Part shown: one piece after another, positions 3,782 to 8,763 of the stretch
Layout of the letters: every line of letters begins with the position of its first letter
Numbering within the stretch: position 1 is the stretch's first letter
Assembly: GCF_001010945.1 (NCBI RefSeq)
Contig: NZ_LBHB01000003.1
Location: forward strand, 1 to 64,000
DNA from: Aurantiacibacter luteus
GTDB taxonomy: Bacteria; Pseudomonadota; Alphaproteobacteria; Sphingomonadales; Sphingomonadaceae
Length of the DNA stretch: 64,000 bases
Direction: 5' to 3'
Notes under the pieces: model-generated
What the model saw: only the letters and a program-made list of their open reading frames with translations
Told to the model about the DNA's origin: nothing
Databases searched by the model: none
Made by a program: the position numbers and the translations under genes

Positions 3782-5473
3782 ATGACCGCCATGCCCGGTA
3801 ACCAGTTTGCCAACGCCACGCCCGTCGGCCCGACCGAGGCCGAGATCAGGGCCACGCGCAGCGCCGACAATGCCGGCCAGCCGATCGGCGTGGTGCTGGA
3901 AATCGCCGGCTCCGGCTCACAGATCGCGCTCGACCTCTTGCGCCTCAACGAGTGCATGGAGGATGCCGATCCCTCGATCGCGCTTGCCGGACAGGTCGGC
4001 AGCCAGATCAAGATCAAGACGCAGGACGGCTGGCTGCTCGCCAGCGTGCGCAACCAGCGGCAGGACCGGCGCGGCGACGGCAACGCGGTGGTCGCCAACA
4101 TCGATTTCATGGGCGAGGGCAAGGAAGAGCGGCTGACCGGCAAAATCCACGGTTTCCGCCGCGGCGTCACCCGCTATCCCATCCCCGGCGCGCTGTGTTA
4201 CCCGGCGACGACCGAGGACCTCAGGCAAATCTATTCCAGCGACGGGCGCAGCGCGATCCAGATCGGCACGGTCTATCCCACGAACGATATTCGCGCGGGC
4301 ATGTATATCGATGCCATGCTCGGCAAGCATTTCGCCCTGCTCGGCTCCACCGGCACCGGCAAGTCGACCAGCGCGGCGCTGATCCTGCACCGCATCTGCG
4401 AGGCTGCGCCGCAGGGCCATATCCTGATGATCGACCCGCACGGCGAATATTCCGCCGCTTTCCGCAACACGGGCCGCATCTTCGACGTCAGCAACCTGCA
4501 AATGCCCTACTGGCTGATGAACTTCGAGGAGCACTGCGAGGTCATCATCAAGTCCACCGGCAACGACCTGCAGAACGACCGAGACATCCTTGCCAAGTGC
4601 CTGCTGATGGCGCGGCAGAAGAACCGCCTGGCCGAGACGATGGGCAAGATCACCGTCGATTCGCCCATTCCCTACCTCCTCTCCGACCTCACCAACCTGG
4701 TGCAGGACGAGATGGGCAAGCTCGACAAGGCGACCAACACCGCTCCCTACATGCGCATCAAGACCAAGATCGACGAGCTGAAGCAGGATCCGCGCTACCA
4801 GTTCATGTTCTCGGGCATGCTGGTGGGCGACACCATGGGCGACTTCATCGGCAAGATCTTCCGCATGCCGTCCGACGGCAGCCCGATCGCCATCATCGAC
4901 GTCTCGGGCGTGCCCAGCGACATCACCAGCACCGTGGTCGCTGTGCTCAGCCGCCTGGTGTTCGACTTCGCCATCTGGAGCCGGAACGAGGCGACGAGCC
5001 CGATCCTGCTGGTGTGCGAAGAGGCCCACCGCTACGTCCCCAACGAGCGCAACGCCGACGGCAACTCGGTCGGCCGCGTGCTCAGCCGCATCGCCAAGGA
5101 AGGCCGCAAGTACGGAATTTCGCTCGGCCTCATCACCCAGCGCCCGTCCGACCTTGCCGAAGGCGTGCTGTCGCAATGCGGCACGATCATTTCGATGCGC
5201 CTCAACAACGACCGCGACCAGGCCTTCGTGAAGGCCGCCATGCCCGAGGGCGCGCGCGGCTTCCTCGATTCCATCCCGGCGCTGCGCAACCGCGAGTGCA
5301 TCATCTGCGGCGAGGGCGTGTCGATCCCGATCCGCGTCAGCTTCGACAACCTCGACGAGGCCAAGCGACCCGCGTCCGAGGACCCGAGCTTCGTCGAGCT
5401 GTGGAACAAGGGCGGCGGCGAGGAGGACATGGTCCACCGCACCGTGCAACGCTGGCGCGCGCAGGGGGCGTAA
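3782..5473 (+). CDS. HerA-like ATPase (DUF87/HAS-barrel)
   Basis: The 563-residue product has an N-terminal HAS-barrel-like region and a HerA/FtsK-type P-loop ATPase core. Walker A is GSTGTGKS near residue 187, Walker B is LLVCEEAH near residue 409, and the RKYGISLGLITQRPSDL segment carries the usual sensor region. The C-terminal segment after about residue 470 is typical of HerA. HerA proteins are hexameric DNA translocases that in archaea act with the nuclease NurA; no nurA-like gene is nearby. An 88-bp gap separates it from the upstream pair, so it may have its own promoter. The family is clear; the cellular role is not known from this sequence. Confidence 0.88.
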   Translation: MTAMPGNQFANATPVGPTEAEIRATRSADNAGQPIGVVLEIAGSGSQIALDLLRLNECMEDADPSIALAGQVGSQIKIKTQDGWLLASVRNQRQDRRGDGNAVVANIDFMGEGKEERLTGKIHGFRRGVTRYPIPGALCYPATTEDLRQIYSSDGRSAIQIGTVYPTNDIRAGMYIDAMLGKHFALLGSTGTGKSTSAALILHRICEAAPQGHILMIDPHGEYSAAFRNTGRIFDVSNLQMPYWLMNFEEHCEVIIKSTGNDLQNDRDILAKCLLMARQKNRLAETMGKITVDSPIPYLLSDLTNLVQDEMGKLDKATNTAPYMRIKTKIDELKQDPRYQFMFSGMLVGDTMGDFIGKIFRMPSDGSPIAIIDVSGVPSDITSTVVAVLSRLVFDFAIWSRNEATSPILLVCEEAHRYVPNERNADGNSVGRVLSRIAKEGRKYGISLGLITQRPSDLAEGVLSQCGTIISMRLNNDRDQAFVKAAMPEGARGFLDSIPALRNRECIICGEGVSIPIRVSFDNLDEAKRPASEDPSFVELWNKGGGEEDMVHRTVQRWRAQGA

Positions 5474-5826
5474 CCTGTTTTGCGAAAGCGCCTCCGCGCC
5501 TTCGTCCTCGCTATACGCACTCCGCTGCGCTGCGTGCCCGCTGCGGGCGGCCAGTCGGCCTTGCGGGCCCTCGGCCCGGCGGAGGGAAGGGAACGCGCGT
5601 CATAGGCGGCGGTTGGACTGGCATGATTCCTGCCGGAGACTGCAATGCGTGACGCCCTCAAGATCGCCGGCGGTGCCGCCGTCCTGCTGACCGCGGGCTG
5701 AGGCGCCTATGTCTATAATGAGAAACGCATCGAGCAGACCGATTACCAGGTCATCCGCGCTGAAGGTAATTTTGCGGTGAGCGAGTACCCCTCGAGAGTT
5801 CCGCCCCATGCCTAGTCCGCATGTCA

Positions 5827-6135
5827 TCACGCCTCCAAAATCCGTTCACGCACGAAAGCGTCCCAATCCCGTGCAAAGCGCATCGCGGCACGATTGCTCG
5901 CCTGATAGCCATGCCTGTGGCTCGCATAGCGAATCTCCGCACTCTCGGCAAAGCGCGTCGGCAGGCTCTTGTAGAACCCATCTCGCGCGGGACTTGAGCA
6001 CGACCACTGGCGCGGGCGTTCACCCTCAGTGAAAATCGAGCGGGTGCGCCCACGATGCGGCAAGAGGAGGAGGTCGCGTGACCCCGCGAGCATTTGACAG
6101 GTATTTGCAAGGAACATACGAAATCCATGGCTCAA
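5827..6135 (-). CDS. hypothetical open frame or gene remnant inside the insertion
   Basis: This minus-strand frame encodes up to 102 residues. Its second half (FYKSLPTRFAESAEIRYA, later RFARDWDAFVRERILEA) looks like a normal protein C-terminus: balanced composition, alternating charged and hydrophobic residues, clean stop. The first 45 residues are arginine-rich and look less natural, and I see no good ribosome site at the first start, so it may be the 3' remnant of a larger gene. I do not recognise the family. Its 5' end overlaps the promoter of the divergent peptide gene. It could also be chance coding. Confidence 0.3.
   Translation of the reverse strand: MSHGFRMFLANTCQMLAGSRDLLLLPHRGRTRSIFTEGERPRQWSCSSPARDGFYKSLPTRFAESAEIRYASHRHGYQASNRAAMRFARDWDAFVRERILEA
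6094..6122 (+). promoter_or_regulatory. sigma-70-type promoter for the small peptide gene
   Basis: A perfect -35 hexamer TTGACA (6094-6099) is followed after exactly 17 bp by TACGAA (6117-6122), a moderate match to TATAAT. Transcription would start near 6130, about 20 nt before the peptide ribosome site. Such a clean -35 element is uncommon in this GC-rich window, and it sits directly upstream of an otherwise isolated small gene. Confidence 0.5.
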
Positions 6136-6152
6136 AAAGAAAAGGTGTTTTT

Positions 6153-6281
6153 ATGGATATTGAAAAGAAGGACTGGACCGCTCCGTGTGTGGTCGATTTG
6201 GATGGCGCTGATAGCGTTTGCTTGAATAATATTGGACCATTCAGTGATGCGCGAACTTCCGTTGCGACGGCGACCTCATAA
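6153..6281 (+). CDS. orphan 42-residue peptide, RiPP-precursor-like
   Basis: The ATG at 6153 was chosen because AAAGGTG (6141-6147) lies 5 bp upstream and a promoter-like site ends at 6122; a start further upstream (6078) would precede that promoter. The peptide begins MDIEKKDWTAPCVVDLDGA and ends in a Ser/Thr-rich tail (NNIGPFSDARTSVATATS). Cysteines are at residues 12 and 23. The Trp-x2-Pro-x-Val-x2-Leu pattern in the first half recalls leader peptides bound by PqqD-like recognition domains (lasso and related RiPPs). The C-terminal part does not fit a lasso core, because Gly28 has Asp only five positions on. No modification or export genes adjoin it. Its function is unknown and a non-RiPP small protein is possible. 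Confidence 0.5.
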   Translation: MDIEKKDWTAPCVVDLDGADSVCLNNIGPFSDARTSVATATS

Positions 6282-6419
6282 GGCAGCCTTCGCGAGCGAA
6301 GTCACACGCCACGGGGCTGAAATCGACCCTGTAGAAACCATACCGCACCGGGTCGGGGGAAGGGTCGGGTTCCAACCCATCCTCGCCAAAATCCATCTCT
6401 AGGGTGCGCGAGCAACGCG

Positions 6420-6460
6420 GCACCGGGGCGAGCAATCCTCCCTCCTGACCGCCCCGGTGC
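6420..6460. repeat. perfect 11-bp inverted repeat
   Basis: GCACCGGGGCG (6420-6430) and CGCCCCGGTGC (6450-6460) can pair with a 19-nt loop. The right arm overlaps the right copy of the 7-bp direct repeat that bounds the insertion. It lies about 90 bp beyond the stop of the MATE gene but has no T-run on either strand, so it is not a convincing intrinsic terminator. It may be a structural part of the inserted DNA. Confidence 0.55.
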
Positions 6461-6547
6461 GGGTTACGCGGGGGCCGTGACAGCGCGCTGCAAAGCGGGT
6501 TTCGCCAGCTCGCCGACTACATCTTCGCCAAGTCCCGCGGCGGCGCC

Positions 6548-8020
6548 TTAGATCTCCGGCGTCATCCTGCCCGCAGCCATTCCGTCCGCCTGCACCTGCT
6601 CGTCGGCCATGCGCGGGCGTTCTGCCTGCGCCTTCGTGCGCCAGCCGGAGTAGTGGTAGAACCAGTAGGCCAGCACCACGCCCGCCACCGATCCGACCGG
6701 GAACGACCACCAGATGGCGTCCGATCCCAGCCAGTCGTAGGTGGCGTAGTAGAACCCAAGCCGCACCGGGTAGAGCGCCACCGCCACGATCAGCAGCGGC
6801 ACCATCACCGCGCCGCCGGCGCGCATGGTGGCGGAATAGATCATCGTCACGCCGAACAGCATGAAGCTCCATACCGAGATGAACTGGATGTGCCGGGCGA
6901 GCGGGACGGCGGGGCTGTCCGGCCCGAGGAACAGGCCGAGCACCGGCCGGTCGAACAGCAGCAGCAGCGCCGTCAGCAAGCCGGTCATGGCGAGGTTGAC
7001 GATCACGCCCGCGCGGCTGATTTCGTCGATCCGGTCCCATCGCCGCGCGCCGATGTACTGCGCCGCCATCGCGGAAACCGCACCGCCGATCGCCATCGCC
7101 GGCATCTGCAGGTAGGTGAACAGCTGCATCGCCGCGCCATATGCCGCGGTCATCAGCAGCCCTTCGCGGTTGACGAGGCCGACGGCGATGATGCCCGCCG
7201 CGCTCATCACCAGCATCTGCGCGCCCATCGGCAGGCCCTTCTTCACGATGAAGTCGAGCTCTACGCGCCGGGGTTTCAGGTAGGCGAGCTCGGGCCCGCG
7301 CAGTCGCAAGGGCAGGTCCTTCGCATAGACGTAGGCGATGGTGCCGAAGAACGAGGCGAGACTGGCGATGATCGTCGAGATCGCCGATCCCGCAATTCCG
7401 AGCGCGGGGAAGGGGCCGTAGCCCGCGATCAACAGCGGGTTCAGCACCACGTCGATTGCGACCATCATCCCCATGAAGATCAGCGGCGTCCGCGAATCGC
7501 CGGTGCCGCGCAGGCCCATGGCGAGGATCACCGAGGCCATGCCGAAGGGCATCGAGACGAACATCAGGCGGATGTAGGTGAGGGCGAGATCAAAGGCGCT
7601 TCCCGGCGTCGCCATCAGCGAAAGCAGCTCGGGCGCGAGCCAGAAGCCCAGCGCGGCGATGGCGATCATCAGCGTGGCGGCAAACCCGACCGCGCTGCCG
7701 AATGCGCGGCGGGCTCCGTCCACGTCGCGCGCGCCGAAGCGCTGGCCGATCAGCACCGTGCCCGCCATGCCGAAGCCGAAGGCGGCACTGGCGACGAGGA
7801 ACATCACGATGTTGGCGTTTGCCGTGGCCGCCAGCGCCTGCTCCCCGATCAGCCGCCCGACCCAGATCGAGTTGATCGTGCCGTTCAGCGACTGGAGGAT
7901 GTTGGAGGCGAGCGTGGGCACGGCAAACATCAGCAGCGTCCGCATGACCGGCCCCTCGGTCAGGTCGCCGCGCATCCGGGCTTGCGGAGGGTTGGCCGCC
8001 GGGGCCGAATCGTCGTTCAT
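6548..8020 (-). CDS. MATE family efflux transporter
   Basis: This 490-residue polytopic protein has about twelve membrane helices in two halves, typical of MATE antiporters, which expel cationic drugs or metabolites using Na+ or H+ gradients. Characteristic segments are GPVMRTLLMFAVPTLASNIL at the first helix, ALAATANANIVMFLVASAAF, and GLRGTGDSRTPLIFMGM. I chose the ATG at 8020, which overlaps the queE stop as ATGA; the frame continues further upstream only into queE. The 3' end abuts the SOUL gene remnant, so a past deletion may have ended here, but the protein has normal length. The substrate is unknown. Confidence 0.9.
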   Translation of the reverse strand: MNDDSAPAANPPQARMRGDLTEGPVMRTLLMFAVPTLASNILQSLNGTINSIWVGRLIGEQALAATANANIVMFLVASAAFGFGMAGTVLIGQRFGARDVDGARRAFGSAVGFAATLMIAIAALGFWLAPELLSLMATPGSAFDLALTYIRLMFVSMPFGMASVILAMGLRGTGDSRTPLIFMGMMVAIDVVLNPLLIAGYGPFPALGIAGSAISTIIASLASFFGTIAYVYAKDLPLRLRGPELAYLKPRRVELDFIVKKGLPMGAQMLVMSAAGIIAVGLVNREGLLMTAAYGAAMQLFTYLQMPAMAIGGAVSAMAAQYIGARRWDRIDEISRAGVIVNLAMTGLLTALLLLFDRPVLGLFLGPDSPAVPLARHIQFISVWSFMLFGVTMIYSATMRAGGAVMVPLLIVAVALYPVRLGFYYATYDWLGSDAIWWSFPVGSVAGVVLAYWFYHYSGWRTKAQAERPRMADEQVQADGMAAGRMTPEI

Positions 8021-8763
8021 GTCCCGCGTGTATCGCCGAACAGGTGGATGTGCAGCCTGTCCGTGATGCGCCAGCCCTCCGCCTTCGCCAGCGGGGCAAG
8101 CCAATCGAGCCGGTCGCGCAGGGTCTCGCTGTCGGTGCCTTCGGGCATGAGGTAGACGCGGTCGGGAGGAATTTGGTGCGCGGAGACGAGGGCGCGGACC
8201 TCGTCCACGTCCCCGGGCCGGGCGATTACGAACTTGAAGAACGCCCGCTCGTCCGTCGCCCAGCGTGCCAGCATGTGAGGCTTCAGCGCCAGTTCCGCCG
8301 CGTTACCCGAATGCGCGAGCTTGGGGCTGACGTTGTACTGCGTCACCCGCGCATCGAGCGCAGGCTGCGGAGCGACGGTGCCGTTGGTCTCGATCTCGAC
8401 CGCCATGCCCGGCAGGTGTTCGAGCATCCGCGCCAGCTGCGCCCCCTGCATCAAGGGTTCGCCCCCGGTGATGACGAGCCGGTCGCGCCCGAATGCGGCC
8501 ACCCGCGCGGCGACCTCTGCCTCATCGAGCGCGATCTGGTTGGGGTGGCGGGGGAAAGTCTCCCCTGAGCGGTGCGGTCGCGCGTCGCCGTCGAAATGCC
8601 AGGTGTAGGGGGTATCGCACCACAGGCAGGCGAGGTTACACCGCGACAAGCGCACGAAGGCGACCGGGATTCCGGCGGAAGGGCCTTCGCCTTGCGGGGA
8701 GGCAAAAATCTCCGGCTCGCCCGGAGCTTGCGTGGCCAAGACCAGTGTCACAATCCCGCTCAC
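8017..8763 (-). CDS. queE: 7-carboxy-7-deazaguanine synthase QueE
   Basis: The 248-residue radical SAM enzyme converts 6-carboxytetrahydropterin to 7-carboxy-7-deazaguanine in the queuosine/preQ0 pathway. The iron-sulfur cluster cysteines are C42, C46 and C49 in CNLACLWCDTPY, a Cx3Cx2C motif, and GEP in the ITGGEPLMQ segment is the usual SAM-contact motif. The FASPQGEGPSAG segment before the cluster is a QueE hallmark. No other queuosine genes lie nearby. The downstream MATE gene overlaps its stop, so the two are co-transcribed; a functional link is not evident. Confidence 0.92.
   Translation of the reverse strand: MSGIVTLVLATQAPGEPEIFASPQGEGPSAGIPVAFVRLSRCNLACLWCDTPYTWHFDGDARPHRSGETFPRHPNQIALDEAEVAARVAAFGRDRLVITGGEPLMQGAQLARMLEHLPGMAVEIETNGTVAPQPALDARVTQYNVSPKLAHSGNAAELALKPHMLARWATDERAFFKFVIARPGDVDEVRALVSAHQIPPDRVYLMPEGTDSETLRDRLDWLAPLAKAEGWRITDRLHIHLFGDTRGT

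Follow-up and report, generated by a model that had tools for sequence, protein, structure and literature searches.

Two pieces of a SOUL gene stand in one reading frame in Aurantiacibacter, flanked by genes for a HerA-type ATPase and a MATE transporter, and the locus raises the question of what separated them and what the intervening DNA carries. The DNA analysed, referred to here as the window, is a stretch of 64,000 nucleotides (C17:1-64000) of a 2.89-Mb genome, G000. The initial annotation had described a SOUL gene split by an insert bounded by short direct repeats. The split and the repeat are confirmed, but an in-frame TGA, a loss of C-terminal sequence and a small gene inside the insert had been missed. 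This payload, an intact lasso-type precursor gene, is the main interest of the locus, rather than the insertion itself. The gene probably encodes an orphan precursor for a lasso-like peptide of the kinase-associated Ile/Val(-2) type, which would be matured in trans by one distant enzyme cluster and would have been brought into the SOUL pseudogene on island-like DNA.

Table 1. Features of the interrupted SOUL locus (window positions)
Feature	Position	Strand	Basis or remark
HerA-type ATPase gene, left flank	3782-5473	+	PF01935
N-terminal SOUL remnant	5645-5800	+	tblastn with SOUL protein L014, E 1.9e-6
In-frame TGA within SOUL remnant	5699-5701	+	
CCGCCCC, left copy	5801-5807	+	read directly
648-bp insert, including right CCGCCCC copy	5808-6455	.	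direct reading and control comparison
Piece of coding frame 5827-6135	5872-6018	-	E 5.4e-7 to G153 protein; ArdC neighbour
Promoter-like TTGACA-17-TACGAA	6094-6122	+	direct reading; fails strict sigma-70 scan
Ribosome site AAGGTG	6142-6147	+	
42-aa lasso-type precursor gene	6153-6281	+	Trp8, Pro11, Asp32, C-terminal Ser42
CCGCCCC, right copy	6449-6455	+	read directly
Second SOUL block, ends before MATE stop codon	6470-6544	+	E 4.0e-5
MATE transporter frame, right flank	6548-8104	-	PF01554

Sequence comparison indicates that the SOUL gene is truly broken and that its remnant is real. When an intact SOUL protein from a congener (L014) was compared by tblastn with the whole 64-kb window, its N-terminal part aligned with positions 5666-5902, an alignment that is meaningful only to about 5800, and the block next to the MATE gene was matched as well. 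The initial annotation had placed the two fragments in one frame and had allowed that they might fail to align to SOUL proteins; both align to L014. In Pfam searches the second block alone reached E 0.1 and the N-terminal piece had no match, and no part of the window matched residues 93-215 of L014 at E <= 1. Two further lesions are present, the in-frame TGA and the loss of more than half of the C-terminal part, and the remnant reads into the MATE stop codon at 6548. A complete SOUL domain was not found in the genome (no PF04832 match at E <= 0.001), only the two pieces; SOUL matches occur in five of 36 congeners and in one of 24 other relatives.

The heptamer CCGCCCC does stand at both break points, at an offset of 648 bp, and joining the gene across it leaves 19 residues between YP and GF (18 after YPS), counted by eye, as the initial annotation had stated. 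This spacing equals that of the intact SOUL proteins L010, L012 and L014. Some shared 7-mer was found in zones of equal size in 254 of 1700 control pairs, and a shared 7-mer at exactly offset 648 in five of the 1700. A 7-mer at the distance determined by homology supports an insertion; this support is suggestive, not proof.

The same data bear on a reading without any single insertion, in which several deletions and additions eroded the SOUL gene and the CCGCCCC pair is a chance occurrence in GC-rich DNA. The gene has three lesions in all, about seven residues at the joint (PPRCGLR) have no counterpart in SOUL homologues, and shared 7-mers as such are frequent in the control zones. The relatives also lend it something. 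Their 29 HerA loci yielded no SOUL within about 1.5 kb of HerA (0 of 29) and no empty site, and the HerA-side gap is variable in the genus: the next gene is one that we take to be QueE in 18 relatives and MATE in 10, with a weak MATE match only in one, the MATE matches indicating presence only because the query was translated out of frame. Stepwise decay nevertheless leaves the 7-mer at the distance required by homology, seen in so few controls, and a joint spacing identical to that of three intact proteins to coincidence, and we regard it as the less likely reading. A single insertion into the SOUL gene is likely, though not proven; we infer its mode and route. In the closest relative, G036, whose HerA is 94% identical, about 63 bp lie between flanks that stand 2.5 kb apart in the window genome. 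G036 is without MATE at this site too, and the insert therefore accounts for only part of the 2.5-kb difference.

The split alignment, the 7-bp repeat at the distance set by homology, the low GC content (0.475 at 6100-6299) and the absence of the region from G036 agree with the earlier idea that new DNA was delivered into the SOUL gene. As had also been stated, neither a transposase nor terminal inverted repeats were found; inverted repeats are present in the insert, not at its ends. The suggestion of a cassette-like element was not borne out. The frames of the insert have no Pfam or NCBIfam match, no second DNA copy was found in the genome, the nine precursor loci described below have no ends in common, and comparison with 397 genomes of the family gave short DNA matches only (20-62 bp, best E 7.4e-5). 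Searches for relatives in plasmids or phages gave no match, and an origin from either was set aside. Direct repeats at offset 360 within the insert were likewise rejected as element ends (30 of 200 shuffles and 86 of 108 control windows do as well), and the similarity of 6331-6353 to the MATE gene (23 bp, E 0.03) was taken as chance.

The left part of the insert hints at island DNA. The piece of coding frame on its minus strand shows 53% identity across 49 residues with a protein that is present twice in a genome of another genus (G153), where an ArdC antirestriction gene adjoins one of the copies. Matches in 21 other genomes have E 8.8e-4 or weaker, and many contain stops.

The small gene to the right of this frame is intact, with 42 codons and a ribosome site, and its peptide has no Pfam or NCBIfam match. 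The promoter-like TTGACA-17-TACGAA ahead of it also occurs upstream of a second precursor, at C1:516670. When the window peptide alone was compared with the 397 family genomes, matches at E <= 0.1 were obtained in 19; some are short frames of equal pattern and others are not. In a 12-row alignment of the good matches W8 and D32 are invariant and P11 nearly so. Profile searches at E <= 0.01 placed members in 12 of the 397 genomes, nine of them in the window genome itself. A two-strand profile search collected 42 peptides and did not keep other single-peptide matches (such as L073, L074, L077, L078 and L080), which were dropped; the later collection, made with a profile built from 32 peptides, comprises 58 distinct peptides.

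All 58 end in Ser. The 32 profile peptides all do so too, and the later members are therefore not independent for this residue. Ten non-self members from the single-peptide search, matched at most to residue 39 of the 42 in the query, also all end in Ser. The leader motif is WxxPx, the last position being mostly V, L or I, with Trp in place of the Tyr of YxxPxL. The spacing from Trp to Asp is 24 in 30 of the 58 peptides, 25 in nine, 23 in five and 21, 22 or 26 in six, while eight are without Asp in the expected place; if Trp is taken as -17, a spacing of 24 puts Asp at core position 8. With Asp set at position 8 in the 50 Asp-bearing peptides, residue -2 is Ile or Val in 34 and Thr in none, and core residue 1 is Asn in 16, Ser in 11, Ala in eight and Gly in two. 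The window peptide has Cys at -2 in this register and Val at -2 only with Asp at position 9. Lasso peptides usually have Gly at core position 1, and the predominance of Asn, Ser and Ala is unusual for a lasso peptide.

Upstream signals were counted against shuffled sequences. A ribosome site precedes 38 of the 58 genes (shuffle mean 8.8, maximum 17), TTGAC occurs within 150 bp upstream in 20 (mean 8, maximum 16), and TTGAC followed at 16-19 bases by a -10-like TAnnnW in eight (mean 0.7, maximum 5). The ribosome-site count bears on the view that the precursor is a stranded leftover of island DNA, silent and unprocessed like the SOUL gene that surrounds it. The site has decayed, the gene lies next to a broken gene and a truncated frame, and a strict sigma-70 scan passes no promoter, all of which such a leftover would explain. 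Yet the window gene retains its frame, start, ribosome site, leader, Asp and C-terminal Ser, eight other copies are kept in the same genome, and the family as a whole shows an excess of ribosome sites; we rate a leftover as improbable.

An orphan precursor calls for enzymes elsewhere, and the genome has a cluster of lasso type at about 194.6-201.1 kb of contig C1. Its one PqqD (B1) protein, encoded at C1:194623, matches TbiB1 (PDB 5v1u, E 5.6e-9), and its one PF13471 (B2) protein, at C1:198915, scores 56.3 bits against the NCBIfam model lasso_biosyn_B2 (NF033537, cut-off 33). Adjoining B1 and B2 are genes for a cyclase-like Asn synthetase, an HprK-like kinase, a sulfotransferase and an ABC transporter. 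The best NCBIfam model of the cyclase is the lasso cyclase, with 216.7 bits, below the cut-off of 525. The kinase scores below all its NCBIfam cut-offs; by eye, it shares with BsfK, at equal spacing, the eight residues of the motif (H, G, G, G, K, S, D, D).

No precursor was found beside these enzymes. Between B2 and the cyclase, frames of 30-110 aa include only unconvincing candidates, and searches near the cluster found none under E 0.9 in G000, G012 and G025 (about 18-20 kb each) or in G036 and G024 (about 5 kb each). A 12-kb contig piece from Erythrobacter sp. UBA3075 (L232) gave no precursor either; equal scores suggest that this is the cluster of G024. The nearest precursor in the window genome lies about 42 kb from its cluster.

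Elsewhere precursors and enzymes do lie together. Among 11 enlarged precursor loci from other genomes, five (in G287, G035, G002, G085 and G149) hold lasso-type genes with at least one precursor in or near them. The G287 cluster has no sulfotransferase match, the G002 cluster stretch has no B2 or ABC match, and in G085 three precursors lie about 2 kb from the enzyme cluster. The other six loci (in G012, G229 and G386) show no cluster, two of them being on contigs under 10 kb. On contig C1 of G002 two different cyclase genes were seen (L159, about 0.31 Mb; L241, about 1.41 Mb), each with a precursor beside it.

Precursors and close cyclases also co-occur. Seven of 40 genomes of the genus carry precursors (nine in G000, seven in G012, six in G024, four in G036, two each in G002 and G035, one in G025), and the same seven have the best cyclase matches, at E 3.2e-158 or better, the next being G028 at 4.3e-83; the cut between them was chosen after both lists had been seen, and the species are related rather than independent. 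In G028 a weak precursor-like frame (L242, 750-1070; local E 0.001) lies beside a PqqD gene with a proline-rich tail and ends in Ser. It is not counted among the seven.

The family might instead consist of small proteins, or of precursors for another maturation system, that merely travel with these genomes. Core residue 1 is rarely Gly, Thr at -2 is missing, and the cyclase lies below its family cut-off, as would be expected in that case. Such a system would have to account for the closeness, in five genomes, of precursors to genes for B1, B2, cyclase or kinase, for the co-occurrence with close cyclases in the genus and for the published Ile/Val(-2) register, and we consider it the least probable of the alternatives.

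The nine precursor genes of the window genome are spread over contigs C1, C11, C17 and C18 and are unlinked. Their neighbours include genes that we take to be purL-ilvB, purC-M16 peptidase, murI-topA, virB genes (virB3) and a TonB receptor gene. Identity was tested for a VirB4-like gene, prophage lysis genes (phage lysozyme) and a tRNA-Arg among the neighbours, whose gene calls follow a crude rule of length and GC3. Some of the positions are old, and not every copy is recent, since G036 has a precursor at two of the same places, after purL and before virB. At the second of these an orphan precursor stands just upstream of virB-type genes in both species (L154, 5987-8841, about 426 kb of C1 in G000; L202/L205 in G036). 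At 141 kb of C11, the precursor segment measures about 310 bp, compared with 50 bp in G036. Immediately 3' of a tRNA-Arg, a segment of 1.55 kb (L157, 4913-6542; C17, about 172.7-174.3 kb) holds one orphan precursor; G036 has about 141 bp there. Integration directed by tRNA was rejected: the window contains no tRNA, and a single precursor locus adjoins one.

The precursor at C1:516670 lies between direct repeats of 188 bp and 91% identity (L095, 9314-9501 and 9906-10093; about 516.3-517.1 kb), the first 95 bp of which occur once in G036 by alignment. Direct repeats at E <= 0.003 were found at four of the nine loci compared with eight of 184 controls. One of these four repeats overlaps its precursor and only one, the 188-bp pair, is long; the window locus reached E 0.12, and repeats were rejected as a common mechanism. 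Local groups were seen in other genomes, with three precursors in G085:C2 (L162, 8744-9661) and five in G229:C2 (L160, 9149-11173), and suggest local duplication. The copies thus differ in age and were probably dispersed by more than one route.

For the window gene, the reading that we favour, an orphan precursor matured in trans, can be set out as a series of steps. About 648 bp of island-like DNA would have entered the SOUL gene or pseudogene between HerA and MATE. The one B1 (PqqD) protein encoded in the genome would bind the W..P leader of the peptide, the HprK-like kinase would phosphorylate the peptide, probably at Ser42, and B2 would cut before residue 24 or 25. The cyclase would then close a ring onto Asp32, at core position 9 or 8, and the ABC transporter would export the product. 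One cluster, in which no precursor was found, would in this way serve nine dispersed ones. More tentatively, one group of Aurantiacibacter may have a lasso-type trans system with up to nine free-standing precursors, of kept leaders and diverging cores, that come and go by small unrelated insertions, so that one machine, its cluster lacking a precursor of its own, would work on a changing repertoire; on this view the window catches one such gene within a pseudogene. Searches for precursors beside enzymes only would miss all nine genes of this genome, and the locus illustrates how a complete small gene can be carried by an insert that has no transposase.

The precursor type has been published already; its dispersal appears to be a new arrangement. 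Searches of openly accessible literature, judged by titles and abstract openings, gave no description of dispersed lasso precursors. In Duan 2023 (PMC10368454), precursors with Tyr(-17), Pro(-14), Leu(-12), Ile(-2), Gly1 and Asp8 occur together with a kinase, Ile/Val(-2) precursors are also listed, as putative, for Sphingomonadales, and the bsf system of Bradymonas has its precursor inside the cluster and is phosphorylated at Ser3. The system described here resembles these in its B1, B2, putative cyclase and HPr-like kinase, in an aromatic-xxP leader, in Ile or Val at -2 in most members, in Asp at core position 8 and in the spacing of the kinase motifs. Unlike bsf, it has free-standing precursors, nine of them in a single genome, with Trp instead of Tyr, mostly Asn, Ser or Ala as core residue 1, and the conserved Ser at the C-terminus (PMC10368454).

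According to a review (PMC9266682), PadeK, ThcoK and SyanK phosphorylate a C-terminal Ser, which fits the Ser end of all 58 peptides here. Paeninodin and SyanA/SyanK share with the present system a kinase beside the lasso genes and a conserved C-terminal Ser, which accepts the phosphate there; here, unlike there, residue -2 is mostly Ile or Val, a sulfotransferase is in the cluster and the precursors are unlinked (PMC9266682). In its arrangement the proposed system resembles the prochlorosins and synechococsins, where one maturation system (of ProcM type) acts on many scattered precursors with a kept leader and a varied core (PMC10783134). Prochlorosins differ in their lanthipeptide chemistry, their unrelated enzymes, their cyanobacterial hosts and their many more precursors, 29 to 83 (PMC10783134). 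If the proposed trans system is real, it would be a natural test bed for enzyme tolerance and a lasso-side counterpart of the prochlorosin case.
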